Part shown: positions 24,393-50,446 of the stretch, piece after piece | Numbering within the stretch: position 1 is the first letter of the stretch | How the letters are laid out: each line of letters opens with the position of its first letter | Assembly: GCA_903929795.1 (NCBI GenBank) | Contig: CAIYWC010000178.1 | Span: 1 to 64,000, forward strand | Source of the DNA: an uncultured Myxococcales bacterium | GTDB lineage: Bacteria; Myxococcota_A; UBA9042 | Length of the DNA: 64,000 nt | Reading direction: 5' to 3' | Program-made: the position numbers and the translations under genes | The notes under the pieces: model-generated | Told to the model about the DNA's origin: nothing | Databases searched by the model: none | What the model saw: the letters and a program-made list of their open reading frames with translations, nothing else

Positions 24393-26477
24393 TCAGAGCT
24401 GCACAGCGTACACGAAAGCCGCCTTGGGCACGCGCAGCCAACGATCGCGAATGACGCCGCGCAACGTCGCGAAGTCCGTGCCGTCCTTGACGTAGGGCTC
24501 CAACAGCTGCTCCGCCGCCGGCTTGTCGCCGCGTGCCTTGATCTGCGCCACGCGCGTCATCAGCGTCAGGACGGCGTGCGCCACGCGCTCCCGGTGCAGC
24601 GAAAAGCAGCCTTTATCCATGCCGTTGGCCGCCAGCTGGTCCGCATGCCAGGTCAGCGCCCGGGCGTCGTACAGCGCGCCGACTTGCACCGCCGAGAGCT
24701 GGCTGTACGGCTTGGGCTTGCCGTTCGGCGTCGTCATGCCCTGCGCGATGTGGCCCATCGCCCACGCCACGCCCGCCGCCTGGCCCGCGTCGCGCTTGTC
24801 CGCCGCGAGCTTGCCCTGATCCACAAGCCAATCCGCCAGATACAGCGCGCTCGTCTCCGCCTTCAGCTCCTCCAGCGTTGCCGCCAGCGGACCGCCAAAA
24901 ATCTCGTCGTCGACCTTGCCGGCCACCCGGTATTCGTGCGCCGGTCCCAGATTGTGCCCCGCCTCGTGCAGCACCGTCGTCATGATCAGCGACTCCGGGT
25001 CGGTCGGCACCAGCGCCGCGCTGTCCTTGCAAAACAGCGACTCCACCTGCGTGCGAAACGCCGCCTGGCTGTCCAAATCCGTGTAAAGATTGGCCATTGC
25101 CACCGTCCGCCCGCGCGACTCGTTCGCCACCGGGCCCCAGTTGGGCAGACTCTGGCCGACGGTCGCCCCCAGCGCCGAGCGCGAATCGCCCGCGTTCAGC
25201 ACGATGTCGATGAAATTCGGCAAGTGAAAGCTGGTCTTGCCCGACTTGTACGGCGGGCCCGCGAGCACCGCGATCGCGTGCTCCAGCTGCGCCTTGATCG
25301 GCTCCAGCATGCGCTGCCAGGCCACCGCGTCCTCGTTCACGCGGGCGAAACTGACGTGGAATCCAGCCTTGCGCGCGCACGGCTCGTGGTAGGTCTCATC
25401 CGCGCCGATGCGCACGTACCACTTGGATTTGCCTTCCATTTTTGCCCACGCCTCGTCCGCGGCAAACCAGGAGCCATCGGCAAACGCCTGAGCCGCCGCG
25501 CGCAGGTATGCCACAAGCGCCGGCTCCGCGACCGTCTTGTCGGCCGCGAGCGCATCCGCCGCCGCCGTCAGCTCCTGGCCCACCGCGGTCATCTCCGCCG
25601 GCCATGCCTTTTCGAAGGGCACCTCCACCAGCTTGTCCGATTCGCCGCGCACGACCGTAAACGGCCCCAGCAATTCCGAGGCGTTGGGTAGCTTGTCCAG
25701 CTTGGCGCAGAATTCCTTGTCGCGCTGCAGCTCCGCCGGATACACACCGGAGACCTTCTTGGGCCGCCCCGGCAGCGCGTTGCAATCCGGATCCTGTTCG
25801 GTCTTGGGCGCTTCACACCACGGCCCCTGGTTGCGGTGAAACAGCGCGCGGCTCGGCCGGTGTCCCGGCAGGCCCTTGGCCAGCTCCGCCGTCCCGGATT
25901 GCAGGGCAAACAGCGCCTCCACAAGCTCCGCGGCCTTGAGCATGTGCGCCACGAACGCGCGTTCTCCGGCTGGCAGCGCCGTCAGGTCGTGCCAAATCAG
26001 CGTCGGTCGGCCCTGCCGCAGCTCCGCCAGCACCTGCGCGCGCCGCGCCGACTCGGCTGGCTGTGGCAGCGCGCCGTCCGTGCCATTGACGCGCTGCAGC
26101 AGGCCGTACGCCTCGGCGAACTGCGGCGTCAAGTGGTGGTCTTGGAGCCAATCCGCCGCCAGCCCAGGCCAGGTCGCGGCCAGTTCGTCGGCGTCCAACT
26201 CCTTGTTTTGATTTGCATCCACGCGCCAGTACAGCGGCAGATCCTGCTCCGCGGCGAGGCGGTTGAAATCCGCCCGCGACAGCGCCTTGAAGTCCGTCGC
26301 AGTCGGCCCCAGCGCAAGCTCCGTCGCCGTGTCCGGCGCAGCCAGCGCAGTCGGCGTCGGCGCGGCAGGAGGCAGCACGGCCGTTGCCGCTGGCGGCGCA
26401 ACCGGCTCCGGAGCCGGCGTCTTCTGACAAGCCGCGAGCGCAAGCCCGGCAAAACAAACGGCGACGATGCGGTTCAT
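24393..26477 (-). CDS. M49-like zinc metallopeptidase lipoprotein
   Basis: 694 residues. A signal with lipobox (LALAAC) and a Pro/Ala linker precede the catalytic part. An HExxH motif (HEAGH, His504 to His508) is followed about 30 residues later by TLEELKAETSALY (Glu536/537), the spacing and sequence of the dipeptidyl-peptidase III (M49) zinc site, though that family usually has HExxGH. The length also fits M49. Near residue 90 an EF-hand-like loop DANQNKELDADE is present. Unlike cytosolic DPP III it would be anchored outside the inner membrane. ATG 26477 is the only start giving the signal. The radical SAM gene follows after 15 bases. Confidence 0.78.
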   Translation of the reverse strand: MNRIVAVCFAGLALAACQKTPAPEPVAPPAATAVLPPAAPTPTALAAPDTATELALGPTATDFKALSRADFNRLAAEQDLPLYWRVDANQNKELDADELAATWPGLAADWLQDHHLTPQFAEAYGLLQRVNGTDGALPQPAESARRAQVLAELRQGRPTLIWHDLTALPAGERAFVAHMLKAAELVEALFALQSGTAELAKGLPGHRPSRALFHRNQGPWCEAPKTEQDPDCNALPGRPKKVSGVYPAELQRDKEFCAKLDKLPNASELLGPFTVVRGESDKLVEVPFEKAWPAEMTAVGQELTAAADALAADKTVAEPALVAYLRAAAQAFADGSWFAADEAWAKMEGKSKWYVRIGADETYHEPCARKAGFHVSFARVNEDAVAWQRMLEPIKAQLEHAIAVLAGPPYKSGKTSFHLPNFIDIVLNAGDSRSALGATVGQSLPNWGPVANESRGRTVAMANLYTDLDSQAAFRTQVESLFCKDSAALVPTDPESLIMTTVLHEAGHNLGPAHEYRVAGKVDDEIFGGPLAATLEELKAETSALYLADWLVDQGKLAADKRDAGQAAGVAWAMGHIAQGMTTPNGKPKPYSQLSAVQVGALYDARALTWHADQLAANGMDKGCFSLHRERVAHAVLTLMTRVAQIKARGDKPAAEQLLEPYVKDGTDFATLRGVIRDRWLRVPKAAFVYAVQL

Positions 26478-26536
26478 GGCGATCCTGGCGTCAGCTGGCG
26501 ACGCGGCCCGAGCGTAGGCGGCCACGTCACCGGCCG

Positions 26537-27391
26537 TCAATGGCGCATGTCCCACGCGACAAGCCAGTCCGTCCCGGTGCGCACAAACCCCAGCGTCTCC
26601 AGCCGCCGCTGCATGTCCGGCATGTGCGCGCCACCGTAGAAAATTCCCAAGCGTTTTACGCCCTTGCGGAGCTCGGCCTGCAGCGCCGCGATCGCCGCTT
26701 CGTTGCGCCGGGCGATCAGCGCGTCACTCCCGGCGCTGGCCTGCGTCAGGTCGCCCATCTCCGCCAGCTCGCGTGCCAGCACCCGTTTCAGCGCCAGGTT
26801 GCGATCGCTGCCGGGAGCCACCGCGCCAAACAGTTCCAGGCCGCCAAAACGCATCGAGCCGTCCGCGTTGGTCGATCGCGCCGCGTCCGTCAGCGCCCAG
26901 CGCAGCAGCATGCCCAGCGTGTCCGTCCAGTGGCTCTTCAGGTGCGCCATCAGCTCGTCCGGGCCCAGGTCCGCGTGGACGAAATTCGCCCGTTTGTAGT
27001 CGATTTCCTCCAGCTGAAACGCCAGCCCCAGCTTGTCGCGCAGCCAGATTTGCAGGGCGGACAGGCCGCTGTCGCTGCGCACGCCGGTCCGCGCATACCG
27101 CTGGCCATCCGCGGCGACGAGCTCGAACAGCAGCCGCGGATAGCCGTCCAGCCGCCGCTGCAGCTGGCGGTAGTACGCCACGTCCGCAATGTGAATCGCC
27201 GCGACGAGGTCGACCTGCACGTTGCCGCGCCTGAAGTGACCAATTGCGGTGTCCAGGTGGTCCTTGCCGGGCGGCTGGCTGACGTAGCGCATGTACGGCA
27301 GCGGCTCCGCCGGCAGGGCCGCGTGCGCCAAACGCGGCAGCGCGAACAGGAGCGGCAGGAGCCAAGCGATCGGCAAAGGGCGAAGCTGCAT
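26537..27391 (-). CDS. TraB/GumN-like exported protein
   Basis: 284 residues from ATG 27391, with a signal peptide (IAWLLPLLFALPRLAHA). The TraB/GumN signatures are visible: VAAIHIADVAYY with the conserved His, FELV shortly after, and near the C terminus IFYGGAHMPDM. The family (also called TIKI/TraB/PrgY) is thought to include membrane-associated metalloproteases or peptide-blocking factors; the activity here is unknown. It is divergent from the lipoprotein gene at 27491. Confidence 0.82.
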   Translation of the reverse strand: MQLRPLPIAWLLPLLFALPRLAHAALPAEPLPYMRYVSQPPGKDHLDTAIGHFRRGNVQVDLVAAIHIADVAYYRQLQRRLDGYPRLLFELVAADGQRYARTGVRSDSGLSALQIWLRDKLGLAFQLEEIDYKRANFVHADLGPDELMAHLKSHWTDTLGMLLRWALTDAARSTNADGSMRFGGLELFGAVAPGSDRNLALKRVLARELAEMGDLTQASAGSDALIARRNEAAIAALQAELRKGVKRLGIFYGGAHMPDMQRRLETLGFVRTGTDWLVAWDMRH

Positions 27392-27490
27392 GCCGGCCAC
27401 GATAGCACGGGCGCTGGCCGCTTGCATCCGCGCCCGCGGCCGCCCAAGCTATCGCACTGTCAGCGGCCACGGCAGCTGATACGGGAGTCC

Positions 27491-28615
27491 ATGGCCAACT
27501 TTGCGCGCTTGTTGGTGATTCTCGCGCTATTGCCGGCGTGTCGGCAATCGCCTGCGCCCGCGCCACCGGCCTTGCCACCGCCTGCGCCTGCGCCGGCGCC
27601 CGAGGTCGTCGCGCCGCCGCCGCCCGCTGCCGTGGTCGCCGTCGCCGTGCCACCGCTGCCGCTGCCGCTGGATGAACGGCTGACCGCGCAGATCGGCCAA
27701 GGCCACGCCGTGCTGCTGGATTTGCGCGAAGACGGGGTATGGGCGAAGTCCCTGGACGGCGCGCGCAAGGAGCAGCTCGCAGCGACGGCGGCGACCTGGC
27801 TGTGGCCGGACGCCCAGACGCGCGTGCTCTGGTTGTGGCGCGAAGCGGATGGCGCGCTGCAGGCGCTGGACTTGGCGGTGCCGCTGCCGCAGCCGGTGAC
27901 GGTAGCGACGGGCGTGCCGGTCGGCCTGGCCTGGCTGTGGCCCAAGCGCGCGATGGTCGGGCCGGACGACGCGCGGCTGCGGCTGTCGCTGGACCCGCGC
28001 GACGTCGGTTTTCAGTTCGGTCTGCCGCCGGAACCGGGGCGGTGGGAGGCGCCGCGGCGCTGGCGGACGTGCGGGCGCGGCAAGGCCAAGCGGCTGGAGC
28101 CGCAATGTCCGGTGCTCGCGCCGGGTGCGGAAGCGCTGCTGCGGTCGTGGGCTGGGCGAATCAGCGCGGAGACGCGCCTCGCGGGACTCGGGCGTGCGGG
28201 CGCGCAACCGATTGGATGTACGCCACAAAGCTGTGGCGTGGCCCACACGCTCGGCGCCACGCACTGGTGGCTGGTGCCGGCCGCGGTGTGGAGCGACTGT
28301 TGCCGGCGCGGCCACCAACTGTACGACGCGCGCACGCACCGGTTTTTGCGGCTCGGCGCGGGCAAGCTGGTGGCGAACCCGAGCGGCGATCGCCGCGACA
28401 CTGTGGAATCCCTCTGGCTGTGCCCGTTGGGCGACGCGATCGTCACCGAATCCGGCGTGGTGCCGCTGGAGCCACCGGGCGCGCTGCGCTTTGGCGACGC
28501 CGATGCGTGTTTGGGCGGCCAGCCGCTGCGCACGCCCAGCCTGCCGTGCCCCCAAGGCGATCAGTGCGAGGACGACCCGGCCAACGCCGCGACCGACGAG
28601 GCCCGGCCGCGGTAG
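27491..28615 (+). CDS. Hypothetical lipoprotein
   Basis: 374 residues. The signal ends in a lipobox (ALLPAC) followed by a long Pro/Ala/Val linker (about 20-60). The mature part has repeated short beta-like segments rich in Trp and Leu (ATWLWPDAQTRVLWLWR), perhaps a degenerate propeller, and about ten cysteines in the C-terminal half (GCTPQSCG, SDCCRRG, LPCPQGDQCEDD) that suggest disulfides. I recognise no family. ATG 27491 was chosen because the frame upstream is antisense to the TraB-like gene. It converges with the NTPase gene. Confidence 0.7.
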   Translation: MANFARLLVILALLPACRQSPAPAPPALPPPAPAPAPEVVAPPPPAAVVAVAVPPLPLPLDERLTAQIGQGHAVLLDLREDGVWAKSLDGARKEQLAATAATWLWPDAQTRVLWLWREADGALQALDLAVPLPQPVTVATGVPVGLAWLWPKRAMVGPDDARLRLSLDPRDVGFQFGLPPEPGRWEAPRRWRTCGRGKAKRLEPQCPVLAPGAEALLRSWAGRISAETRLAGLGRAGAQPIGCTPQSCGVAHTLGATHWWLVPAAVWSDCCRRGHQLYDARTHRFLRLGAGKLVANPSGDRRDTVESLWLCPLGDAIVTESGVVPLEPPGALRFGDADACLGGQPLRTPSLPCPQGDQCEDDPANAATDEARPR

Positions 28616-28634: not shown

Positions 28635-30137
28635 TTACTTGGCCTGGAGGCCGGCGAAGACGCCGTGTTCGCACGCACCCTGGGCGCGCTCCTGGGCGAT
28701 GGCGAAGAACGCCGCGTCGCGGGTGCCGACGGGCACGGCTTGGTCGACAAAGCCGATGATGTCGTCGGGCGCAATCCCGCGGCTGCAAATGGCCGCGACG
28801 ATCGGGTTCAGGCAGCGGCGGCCATCGGGCAGCGACGCGACCATCGCCGCGATTTCAAGGGACGCCATCTCGCCGGTCGCCGACGTCAGCAGCGCACAAT
28901 CGGTCTGGCCCTTCACCAGCCAGCGCGCCAGCAGCAGGTCCATCAGCGTGCGATTCGCCAGCGCCGCCACGCCGCTCGCCTCGCCTTTGCGGACCACCGG
29001 CGACTGCATCAGCCGCCGACACGCGCCACCCGCTTCACCGCCACCCGGCGCCGCCACACCTTCACAGCGGTTGACCGACAGCCGCAGATCGGGCTCACGC
29101 TTGTCGATCACGCCCTGCGCCGCGATGCGGTCGAGCCAGCTCAGCGCGCCGTCTGTCGTGCTCGTGATGCCGTGCAGCCGGTGCGCCAACCACGTCGCGT
29201 AGAGCTCGGAACGCACTGGATCCATGGCCAAATCGTCCAGTCCAGCGGCTTCGCCCGCCGCCGCGCGCGCGTCTTCGGCGAGATCGGCCATCGTCTCCGC
29301 ATCGCGGTGGGTCGACATGTGCACGTACCGGCACGTCGCACCGCCGCGTTTGCGGTCCAGCTTGTGCGCCGCCAGCCACGCCTGCGCGGCCTGCAGCGCC
29401 GTCGGGTCGGGAAAACGCCGCACCAGCACCGCGTCCGCCTCCGCACACGTCATGTCCGGCAGGGCCAGCACCAGCTCCGGCGCTTTCGTGGGCTTGGCGT
29501 CGACCATCCCGGGCCGCTCAAACCGCACGATTTGCTCACTGAATTCCGCCTTTTCCAGCCAGTCCAGCTCGGCGTCCATCCGGCGCCGCTCGCTCACCGT
29601 CAGCTCGTCGGTGCCATCCAGCAGCAGCAGCCACGGCGTGTCGCCGAGCGCGTCGCGCAGCTGCCCGGCCGGATCCTCGCCCGCGCGCACGCCCAACTGC
29701 CCCAGCAGCACGCCCGCGATGGCCGGCTGGGACGCGGTCGCCAGCTCCAGCTTGGCGCGCAGATCCAGGCCCACATCCACGCGAAAGGTCAGCCGCTGGC
29801 CGCATGTCAGCGCTTCCAGACTCCAGGCCAGCTTGCTTTTGCCCGAACCGCCGCGCGCGATTACCCACGTTTGCGCGCCCGGCTTGGCGGTCAGCAGGTG
29901 GTCGGCGGCCTGCTGTTCCGTCCACGGCGTCTGCGCCGGATCGTCGGCCCGCCGCAGGGCAATCGGCTGGAAGCTGCCATCGGCCAGGCCCGCCGCCCGC
30001 GCGTGCGTCGCGGTCCGACAGCGCTCGGCCATCGGCTCGGGCAACTTGCGCTTGACCGCCGTCGACGCGCCTGAGCAAGCGACCGCGGTCAGAGCCAGTA
30101 GGGAAATGGCGACAAAAATGTGGAGTGGATTGCGCAT
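28635..30137 (-). CDS. P-loop NTPase with a lipoprotein-like N terminus
   Basis: 500 residues. The N terminus (MRNPLHIFVAISLLALTAVAC) looks like a lipoprotein signal or a single membrane anchor. The soluble part has a Walker A motif ARGGSGKS (94-101) and a strong Walker B WLLLLDGTDE (169-178), the LLLLDGxDE form seen in NACHT/STAND NTPases. The C-terminal half is helical with scattered Cys. An ATP- or GTP-binding protein outside the cytoplasm would be odd. Basic residues just after the hydrophobic segment (VKRK) also allow an N-out, C-in topology with the NTPase in the cytoplasm. Function is unknown; a sensor or defence-like role is speculation. It is divergent from the aldehyde dehydrogenase. 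Confidence 0.75.
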   Translation of the reverse strand: MRNPLHIFVAISLLALTAVACSGASTAVKRKLPEPMAERCRTATHARAAGLADGSFQPIALRRADDPAQTPWTEQQAADHLLTAKPGAQTWVIARGGSGKSKLAWSLEALTCGQRLTFRVDVGLDLRAKLELATASQPAIAGVLLGQLGVRAGEDPAGQLRDALGDTPWLLLLDGTDELTVSERRRMDAELDWLEKAEFSEQIVRFERPGMVDAKPTKAPELVLALPDMTCAEADAVLVRRFPDPTALQAAQAWLAAHKLDRKRGGATCRYVHMSTHRDAETMADLAEDARAAAGEAAGLDDLAMDPVRSELYATWLAHRLHGITSTTDGALSWLDRIAAQGVIDKREPDLRLSVNRCEGVAAPGGGEAGGACRRLMQSPVVRKGEASGVAALANRTLMDLLLARWLVKGQTDCALLTSATGEMASLEIAAMVASLPDGRRCLNPIVAAICSRGIAPDDIIGFVDQAVPVGTRDAAFFAIAQERAQGACEHGVFAGLQAK

Positions 30138-48784: not shown

Positions 48785-50446
48785 CTATTTTCCAACCGTC
48801 ACAATGCCATTGGGCCACGAGCCTGCCTGGACCGTCGGATTCTTCAGCAACGTCAGTGCGCCGGTGGTTTGGTCAATCGAGAACTGGGCGACGGTCGTGG
48901 AGCCCCAGCCACTGTTCCCGCATGTTGCGTAGGCAAATTTGCCCGAGGATTCAATGGCGATCCGCACGGCTGCCGCGCCACCTGCTGAGAGCGTCGGCGT
49001 AGCCATGGCCGTGAGCGCGCCGGTCGTCTGGTCAATCGTGAACTGCGCGATGACGGCGTCCGGCGCCGCTTCGTTGACGAGGATCGACGCGTAGGCAAAC
49101 CGGCCTGTTGGGTCGACCGCGATGGAAACCGCACCGACGGCGCCGGTAGCGATCGGGACCGTCGGCGGGACCATGGGCGTGAGCGCCCCGGTCGACTGAT
49201 CGATGGCGTACTGCGACAGGAATCCGTCGCCGTAGTTGGTCACGTACGCTGCCTTGCCCTTCGGTTCGACGACGACGGTGTAGGCGTTGTGCCCGGAGGC
49301 GACCGTCGGCGGGGTCATCAGCGCGAGCGTGCCGGCGGTTTGGTCGATCGCATACTGGGAGACGGTGTTGCCATCCGCGTCCGCGACGTAGGCCCACTTG
49401 CCCGTCGGGTGGATGGCGATGGAATCAGGCGAAGCAGGCGTCGTGACCGCAAGCGGGGTCAGCGGCGAGAGCACGCCGTCCGCGCCGATCGCGTACTGGT
49501 TGACCGTGAGCTTCTCGATGTTTGCGACGTACGCCCACTTGCCGGTCGGATGCACCGCGATGCTGAACGGGTAATACAGGACACCTGCGCCGGTCCCCAT
49601 GAGCACCGTCGGCGTGGCCATGGCCGTGAGCGCACCGTTTGCGCCGATGGTGAACTGCGAAACCGTGTTGGCCGAGACGTTGGACACGTAAATGTACTTG
49701 CCAGACGGGTCGGCGGCGATGAGCTGGGAATTGGCGCCGCCGGTGGCGACGGTCGGCGTGAACATGGCCGTCAGCGCGCCGTTTGGCCCGATTGTGTACT
49801 GGGAAATGTTGCCCGCAGAGCCTGAATTCTGATTGACGACATACGCATAGCCGCCCGCCCAAAGCGCGTACAGCGTGACGTTGTTCGCCGGCATCTCAAA
49901 CGTCGTCCCGGGCGCGTACGCCACGCCGGATCCGTCCGCCTTGGTTTGCCAGCCGACAAAAGTATAGCCGTCATAGGTCAGGCCACCGGCACCGGCGGGC
50001 AGCGTGACCTTCTGCGTTTGCACGTAACTGCCTGAATCAACTGGGACGTTTCCAGTCGCGCCGTTGCCGTCGTAGGTGACGGTGTAGCCGCCGCTGCCGT
50101 TGGGCGTCCATCGGGCATACAGCGTCACGTTGGATGTCGCGATGGTGTAGACCTGTCCTTGCAAATAGCTCGTGCCGGTCCCGTCGGCTTGCGTGTTCCA
50201 ACTGGCGAATACATATCCTGTTTTGACCAAGCCGCCGGTATTTCCGAGCACCGTCGCCGTCTGCCCTTGCGTGTAGTGCGTGGCGTCGACCGGCACGCTG
50301 CCGCCGGTGTTGCCGTTGCCGTCGTACGTGACGCTGTAGCCGTCTGCGGGCGTGGTGCCCGGGCCCGCGCCGCCGCTGGTGCAACCGGCGATGCACGCGA
50401 GCCCTACGAGAAATGCCAGGAACCAGGACCGTCGATGCGCTTTCAT
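48785..50446 (-). CDS. InlB-B-repeat plus YVTN-type propeller lipoprotein
   Basis: 553 residues from ATG 50446, preceded by GAGGAG eight bases upstream. The signal has a lipobox (IAGC). Two InlB B-repeat (Flg_new) units follow: VTYDGNGNTGGSVPVD to TLYARW and VTYDGNGATGNVPVD to TLYALW. The rest is a seven-bladed-type propeller with repeats like IAVHPTGKWAYVAN and VSQYAIDQTAGTLALM, the YVTN/6-phosphogluconolactonase-like pattern. The combination suggests a cell-surface adhesion or scaffold protein; lactonase activity is not supported. Codon use is typical of the window. Confidence 0.85.
   Translation of the reverse strand: MKAHRRSWFLAFLVGLACIAGCTSGGAGPGTTPADGYSVTYDGNGNTGGSVPVDATHYTQGQTATVLGNTGGLVKTGYVFASWNTQADGTGTSYLQGQVYTIATSNVTLYARWTPNGSGGYTVTYDGNGATGNVPVDSGSYVQTQKVTLPAGAGGLTYDGYTFVGWQTKADGSGVAYAPGTTFEMPANNVTLYALWAGGYAYVVNQNSGSAGNISQYTIGPNGALTAMFTPTVATGGANSQLIAADPSGKYIYVSNVSANTVSQFTIGANGALTAMATPTVLMGTGAGVLYYPFSIAVHPTGKWAYVANIEKLTVNQYAIGADGVLSPLTPLAVTTPASPDSIAIHPTGKWAYVADADGNTVSQYAIDQTAGTLALMTPPTVASGHNAYTVVVEPKGKAAYVTNYGDGFLSQYAIDQSTGALTPMVPPTVPIATGAVGAVSIAVDPTGRFAYASILVNEAAPDAVIAQFTIDQTTGALTAMATPTLSAGGAAAVRIAIESSGKFAYATCGNSGWGSTTVAQFSIDQTTGALTLLKNPTVQAGSWPNGIVTVGK

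Follow-up and report, generated by a model that had tools for sequence, protein, structure and literature searches.

A predicted envelope lipoprotein family of Myxococcota carrying an NLR-like NACHT module

The locus and the P0001 N terminus

The window considered here, i.e. the whole stretch of 64,000 nucleotides that was analysed (contig CAIYWC010000178.1, from an uncultured Myxococcales bacterium), contains on its reverse strand (-) an open reading frame of 500 aa, P0001 (28635..30137), that ORF calling and alignment point to as a lipoprotein NACHT NTPase; all features given below for this protein lie on the same (-) strand. On one side of P0001 lies a convergent ORF of lipoprotein-like type, and on the other an aldehyde dehydrogenase gene in divergent orientation. 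The likely start of the convergent ORF (26384-28615), MANFARLLVILALLPAC, is itself a lipobox, and no Pfam family was found in the part of this ORF that was scanned. Beyond it lies a putative lipoprotein (24393-26555) that matches peptidase family M49 below threshold, and whose proximity to P0001 orthologues is confined to the genus. Elsewhere in the window, the ORF at 48788-49999 includes a stretch, YDGYTFVGWQTKADGSGVAYAPGTTFEMPANNVTLYALW, that resembles repeats of bacterial surface proteins.

The N terminus of P0001 reads MRNPLHIFVAISLLALTAVA followed by CSG. Its first 20 residues form a predicted Sec signal peptide (30078..30137), with a hydrophobic segment and a lipobox (LTAVA, then Cys and Ser) found both in the same-genus orthologues and family-wide, and Cys21 (30075..30077), followed by Ser at position +2, is predicted to be lipidated and to begin the mature protein. 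An in-frame TAG stands three codons 5' of the ATG at 30137, which excludes a longer N terminus and makes this ATG the natural start, hydrophobic segment included. The five same-genus orthologues begin with MRN (four) or MIN (the fifth) and keep the ACSGA box, and the signal segment is retained by all aligned family members. The initial annotation had described a hydrophobic stretch ending in a Cys, and had named a start codon downstream of this stretch as the finding that would overturn its reading: the stretch and its Cys are borne out, and a downstream start is disfavoured by the conservation of both the start and the segment.

Export and anchoring

The main alignment comprises 72 members from 24 genomes, and the lipobox Cys occupies the same column in 71 of them; the only member that lacks it (L027) has a leader of the signal-peptidase-I type (LLLLPAGQAGAG). 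A loose lipobox rule also matches 33 of 187 neighbouring non-family ORFs (18%), so that no individual match is given weight here, and the argument rests on the conservation of the column across the alignment. The residue following the Cys is G or S in 66/72 members and Asp in none. Under the +2 rule established in E. coli, such residues point to the outer membrane, and the family is probably anchored there, on its periplasmic or its surface side. The lipoprotein signal peptidase LspA is encoded in the genome of P0001. Twin-arginine export was also considered, and a twin-arginine RR occurs in just 7/72 n-regions. In two other sequences, L133 (G004:C262) and the fragment L129 (G272:C313), a membrane helix replaces the lipobox, which suggests another mode of anchoring.

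Nucleotide-binding motifs

The two motifs picked out by the initial annotation, a Walker A (ARGGSGKS, aa 94-101, 29835..29858) and a NACHT-style Walker B (LLLLDGTDE, aa 170-178, 29604..29630), are confirmed by the alignment: G97, G99 and K100 of the former and D174 of the latter are invariant (72/72), E178 is found in 71/72 members, and D177, which belongs to the acidic cluster DGxDE, in 58/72. A sensor-1-like Arg208-Pro209 (29511..29516) occupies the position of the NACHT 'SRP' motif, with the Arg in 72/72 members and the Pro in 70/72. The conservation of the Walker A Lys, Walker B Asp, sensor Arg and E178 argues that nucleotide binding has been kept; a P0001-type protein is thus likely to bind a nucleotide, and hydrolysis is probably also kept in the family. 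Known NLRs hold ADP through a His of their winged-helix domain (WHD). No His column was found among those conserved in more than 60% of the 72 aligned members, and this ADP-contacting residue may be absent from the family, as judged from the alignment columns.

Some divergent paralogues depart from this pattern. In L131 (G012:C67) the Walker A Lys is replaced by Thr and the C terminus is truncated, and in both L131 and L130 (G007:C49) D177 is replaced by His; these two are possible pseudo-NTPases that retain much of the Cys set described below.

Fold and domain matches

Single-sequence searches with P0001 gave no match in Pfam, NCBIfam, PADLOC or the PDB sequences, and searching the PDB sequences with a profile returned weak generic P-loop matches only (ArsA, a plant NLR and others). 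The comparison with NACHT profiles suggested by the initial annotation had a divided outcome: P0001 alone does not match Pfam NACHT (PF05729), whereas 17 of 37 family members do so weakly (best E 2.1e-7), the scores displayed singly for two members lying below the cut-off of 26.7 bits.

The structural comparison supports the NACHT-like identity that had been proposed. AlphaFold2, run on mature P0001 with 35 homologues, returned a model with a mean pLDDT of 90.1 and a pTM of 0.89, whose first matches in the PDB using Foldseek were NOD2 (E 7.5e-11), NLRC4 and NLRP3; each of the best 28 matches was either an NLR entry or a chain of the mouse cytoplasmic lattice, a structure that includes NLRPs. 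In comparison with NLRP3 NACHT constructs about 473 residues long, the TM-score is close to 0.6 (e.g. 0.61/0.62 for 8zem), and the sequences structurally aligned to NLRs are about 10-14% identical. Both model and matches agree, at the level of the whole module, with the succession NBD-HD1-WHD-HD2, and the modelled protein very probably has a NACHT fold. As this module covers most of the 480-aa mature chain, no space is left for a fused effector or repeat sensor, and P0001 does not show the tripartite architecture of NLRs, in which an N-terminal effector or adaptor and a C-terminal repeat sensor flank the NACHT module.

Conserved cysteines and predicted disulfides

Besides the lipobox Cys, ten Cys columns are conserved. 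Seven of them are invariant (72/72). One of these is Cys112 (29802..29804), which the AlphaFold2 model places at the end of the helix following the P-loop; Cys40 (30018..30020), Cys358 (29064..29066), Cys373 (29019..29021), Cys414 (28896..28898), Cys442 (28812..28814) and Cys489 (28671..28673) complete this set. Cys231 (29445..29447) and Cys269 (29331..29333), which are predicted to form a disulfide with each other, are each present in 71/72 members, as is Cys451 (28785..28787), the exception in this last case still having ten Cys, one of them at another position, perhaps owing to a shift in the alignment. Exactly ten Cys are counted in the mature protein of 64 of the 72 members, eleven in seven and eight in one, even though members outside the group of P0001 are only 22-30% identical to it.

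The member with eight Cys (L069) lacks C231 and C269, and exactly the same two residues are missing from L130 and L133, two further divergent members outside the set of 72. The joint loss of this pair in three lineages matches the prediction of a C231-C269 disulfide. Binding of Zn or Fe-S by the conserved Cys is disfavoured by this paired loss and by the absence of any CxxC among them. Enzymes of the VKOR family are disulfide-forming oxidases in many bacteria, and one is encoded in the genome of P0001. We infer that about five disulfides would stabilise the protein in an oxidising compartment. Such a Cys set fits poorly with a reducing one; together with the family-wide lipobox, it supports the earlier proposal of an NTPase outside the cytoplasm, and an extracytoplasmic location of P0001-type proteins can be predicted from these conserved features with high confidence.

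Family distribution and genomic context

Family members were found in 24 genomes among a set of 53 relatives. The genome of P0001 itself (6.35 Mb, 236 contigs) encodes five, and with a 37-row profile 2-6 copies were detected in each of the 22 genomes examined of the family-level group to which it belongs (f1). Among 284 genomes of the phylum, full members occur outside f1 solely in G026 (f6) and G051 (f5), both of the same class, and G272 (f30) contains two fragments. In the remaining classes of the phylum, weak matches were limited to the NTPase region and were set aside as ordinary NACHT proteins. A pattern-based scan of about 85,000 species genomes, run with a closer set of members than the 37-row alignment and less sensitive than a profile search, returned 34 loci. 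All are in metagenome-assembled genomes (MAGs) whose titles give Myxococcales, Deltaproteobacteria or Proteobacteria, apart from one that bears the name Klebsiella pneumoniae. The member in this MAG (L115, CAMDBH010000012.1) is on a contig that agrees in length and match position with one of G005, a genome of f1, and the MAG has probably been mislabelled.

The tree of the 72 members resolves several ancient paralogue groups, among which that of P0001 (14 rows) is separate with full support. Tandem pairs of family members are seen in several genomes (L125, L134, L136, L138).

Only in the same genus does P0001 stay linked to the lipoprotein-like gene and to the next genes beyond it, and a search of the relatives' neighbourhoods for a conserved operon partner of the P0001 group found none beyond it. 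Another paralogue group (that of L002) is accompanied in several genera by cysH (PAPS reductase), AHSA1-like and ThiF/rhodanese genes, which is read as ordinary synteny, and one paralogue group adjoins a large protein with HEAT repeats and a cyclic-nucleotide-binding domain (L113, L118 and L119, domains taken from L118). No match to the family was found in 50,697 phage records, 72,556 plasmid records or viral contigs, and the PADLOC defence models gave none for P0001 and two stray single-member matches among 37 members. The family genes thus look like core chromosomal genes, and not like passengers of defence islands.

Proposed mechanism and alternative explanations

Inference from conservation and the model gives good support to export and fold; what could a NACHT module do in the envelope? 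The best reading, held with a little more than even confidence, is that of an envelope lipoprotein whose nucleotide switch acts outside the cytoplasm. After Sec export, cleavage at Cys21 and attachment of a lipid anchor, the protein would adopt the fold of an NLR-like NACHT module, held by about five disulfides and retaining the residues for nucleotide binding and hydrolysis. A nucleotide would then be bound outside the cytoplasm and, as in other STAND proteins, its state would set conformation or assembly. Such a switch or oligomeriser could answer extracytoplasmic nucleotides, for example ATP released from lysing neighbours, and relay the signal by contact with other envelope proteins. Each part of this reading has its own strength: the chances that a P0001-type protein is switched by a nucleotide at all seem evenly balanced, and the suggestion that extracellular ATP or ADP is the physiological ligand is a tentative one. 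Several points count against a switch: ATP is scarce outside the cytoplasm, no conserved operon partner was found as a signal relay, the alignment showed no conserved column for the His with which NLRs hold ADP, and the motifs are degraded in some divergent paralogues. On the other hand, NLR modules hold ADP/ATP tightly, so that low extracytoplasmic levels or bursts of lysis could suffice.

Among the alternatives, an extracytoplasmic enzyme that binds or scavenges environmental nucleotides or phosphate compounds for nutrition, with no switch involved, would be equally compatible with the evidence on localisation; the catalytic-type residues are invariant, and the titles of the records name lake and groundwater samples. 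This explanation is nevertheless unlikely, as the fold is that of a multi-domain NACHT switch module and not of a nucleotidase, P-loop ATPases of this kind turn over slowly, and no linkage to transporter or phosphatase genes appears in the neighbourhoods examined.

A nucleotide-driven chaperone, disaggregase or assembly factor of the envelope, comparable to the Torsin AAA+ ATPases of the ER lumen, would agree with the clade-wide, multi-copy and apparently vertical inheritance of the family, and with the housekeeping surroundings (cysH, thiF) of one paralogue group. The top structural matches are nonetheless to NACHT proteins and not to Torsin or Clp, and a steady supply of energy outside the cytoplasm is hard to see, which makes this role improbable.

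Known bacterial NACHT proteins defend against phages (PMC12169576), and the NACHT domain of a Thiohalocapsa protein has been predicted to be periplasmic (PMC10907252), both of which could favour a sensor related to bNACHT that detects phages or predators at the cell surface. This is hardly probable given the near-blank PADLOC result, the location of the copies in the core genome outside mobile contexts, and the absence of a fused effector domain.

The least credible alternative, raised by the initial annotation and not upheld here, is an uncleaved reverse signal anchor, N-out and held by the VKRK that shortly follows the hydrophobic segment of P0001, with a NACHT domain using cytoplasmic ATP as NACHT proteins normally do: VKRK is found in only 2/5 same-genus orthologues (APRK, GPRK or APRP in the others), which leaves a cytoplasmic domain without conserved topological support, one member bears a signal-peptidase-I-type leader, and the column Cys (71/72) and the ten near-invariant Cys with their paired loss are at odds with a reducing cytoplasm.

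Comparison with known systems

Animal inflammasome receptors and bacterial anti-phage proteins both use a NACHT ATPase as their switch, which is assumed to require cytoplasmic ATP. If the envelope lipoprotein, with its ATPase residues kept, is indeed exported, lipid-anchored and disulfide-bonded, either a NACHT switch can run on extracytoplasmic nucleotide, or the module does something different from ATP switching; in this respect, the family bears on the question of whether bacteria sense extracellular ATP. That NLR-like NACHT switches serve as receptors of extracellular ATP/ADP, for instance as a surface sensor of damage or lysis in aquatic Myxococcota, is rather doubtful; if true, it would turn round the situation of characterised NLRs, which work inside the cell.

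Torsin offers a parallel as a P-loop ATPase of an oxidising, non-cytosolic compartment; it belongs to a different fold class and works in the ER lumen, which has its own ATP supply. A search of open-access papers turned up no family of lipoprotein NACHT proteins with conserved disulfides. An extracytoplasmic NACHT domain does have a precedent, as a prediction: the second target of DGR 3 in Thiohalocapsa PB-PSB1 has a NACHT domain that is joined to a hypermutated C-type lectin domain and was predicted, in this one genome, to be periplasmic, and the portion of the report consulted describes neither a lipoprotein nor conserved disulfides (PMC10907252). Among bacterial proteins, the P0001 family shares the NACHT NTPase with bNACHT, whose known members are directed against phages, detect them intracellularly and in some cases carry nuclease effectors (PMC12169576); unlike them, it is predicted to be exported and rich in disulfides, and is core, clade-wide and unrecognised by PADLOC. 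With the NACHT of animal NLRs such as NOD2, NLRC4 and NLRP3 it shares the fold over most of the mature chain, the Walker A, the DGxDE Walker B and the sensor Arg-Pro, but in contrast to these receptors it is predicted to be an exported lipoprotein with ten near-invariant Cys, has no CARD/PYD or LRR, and showed no conserved His column in the alignment. Taken together, fold and motifs make the family NACHT, its architecture sets it apart from NLRs, and its predicted location is unusual.
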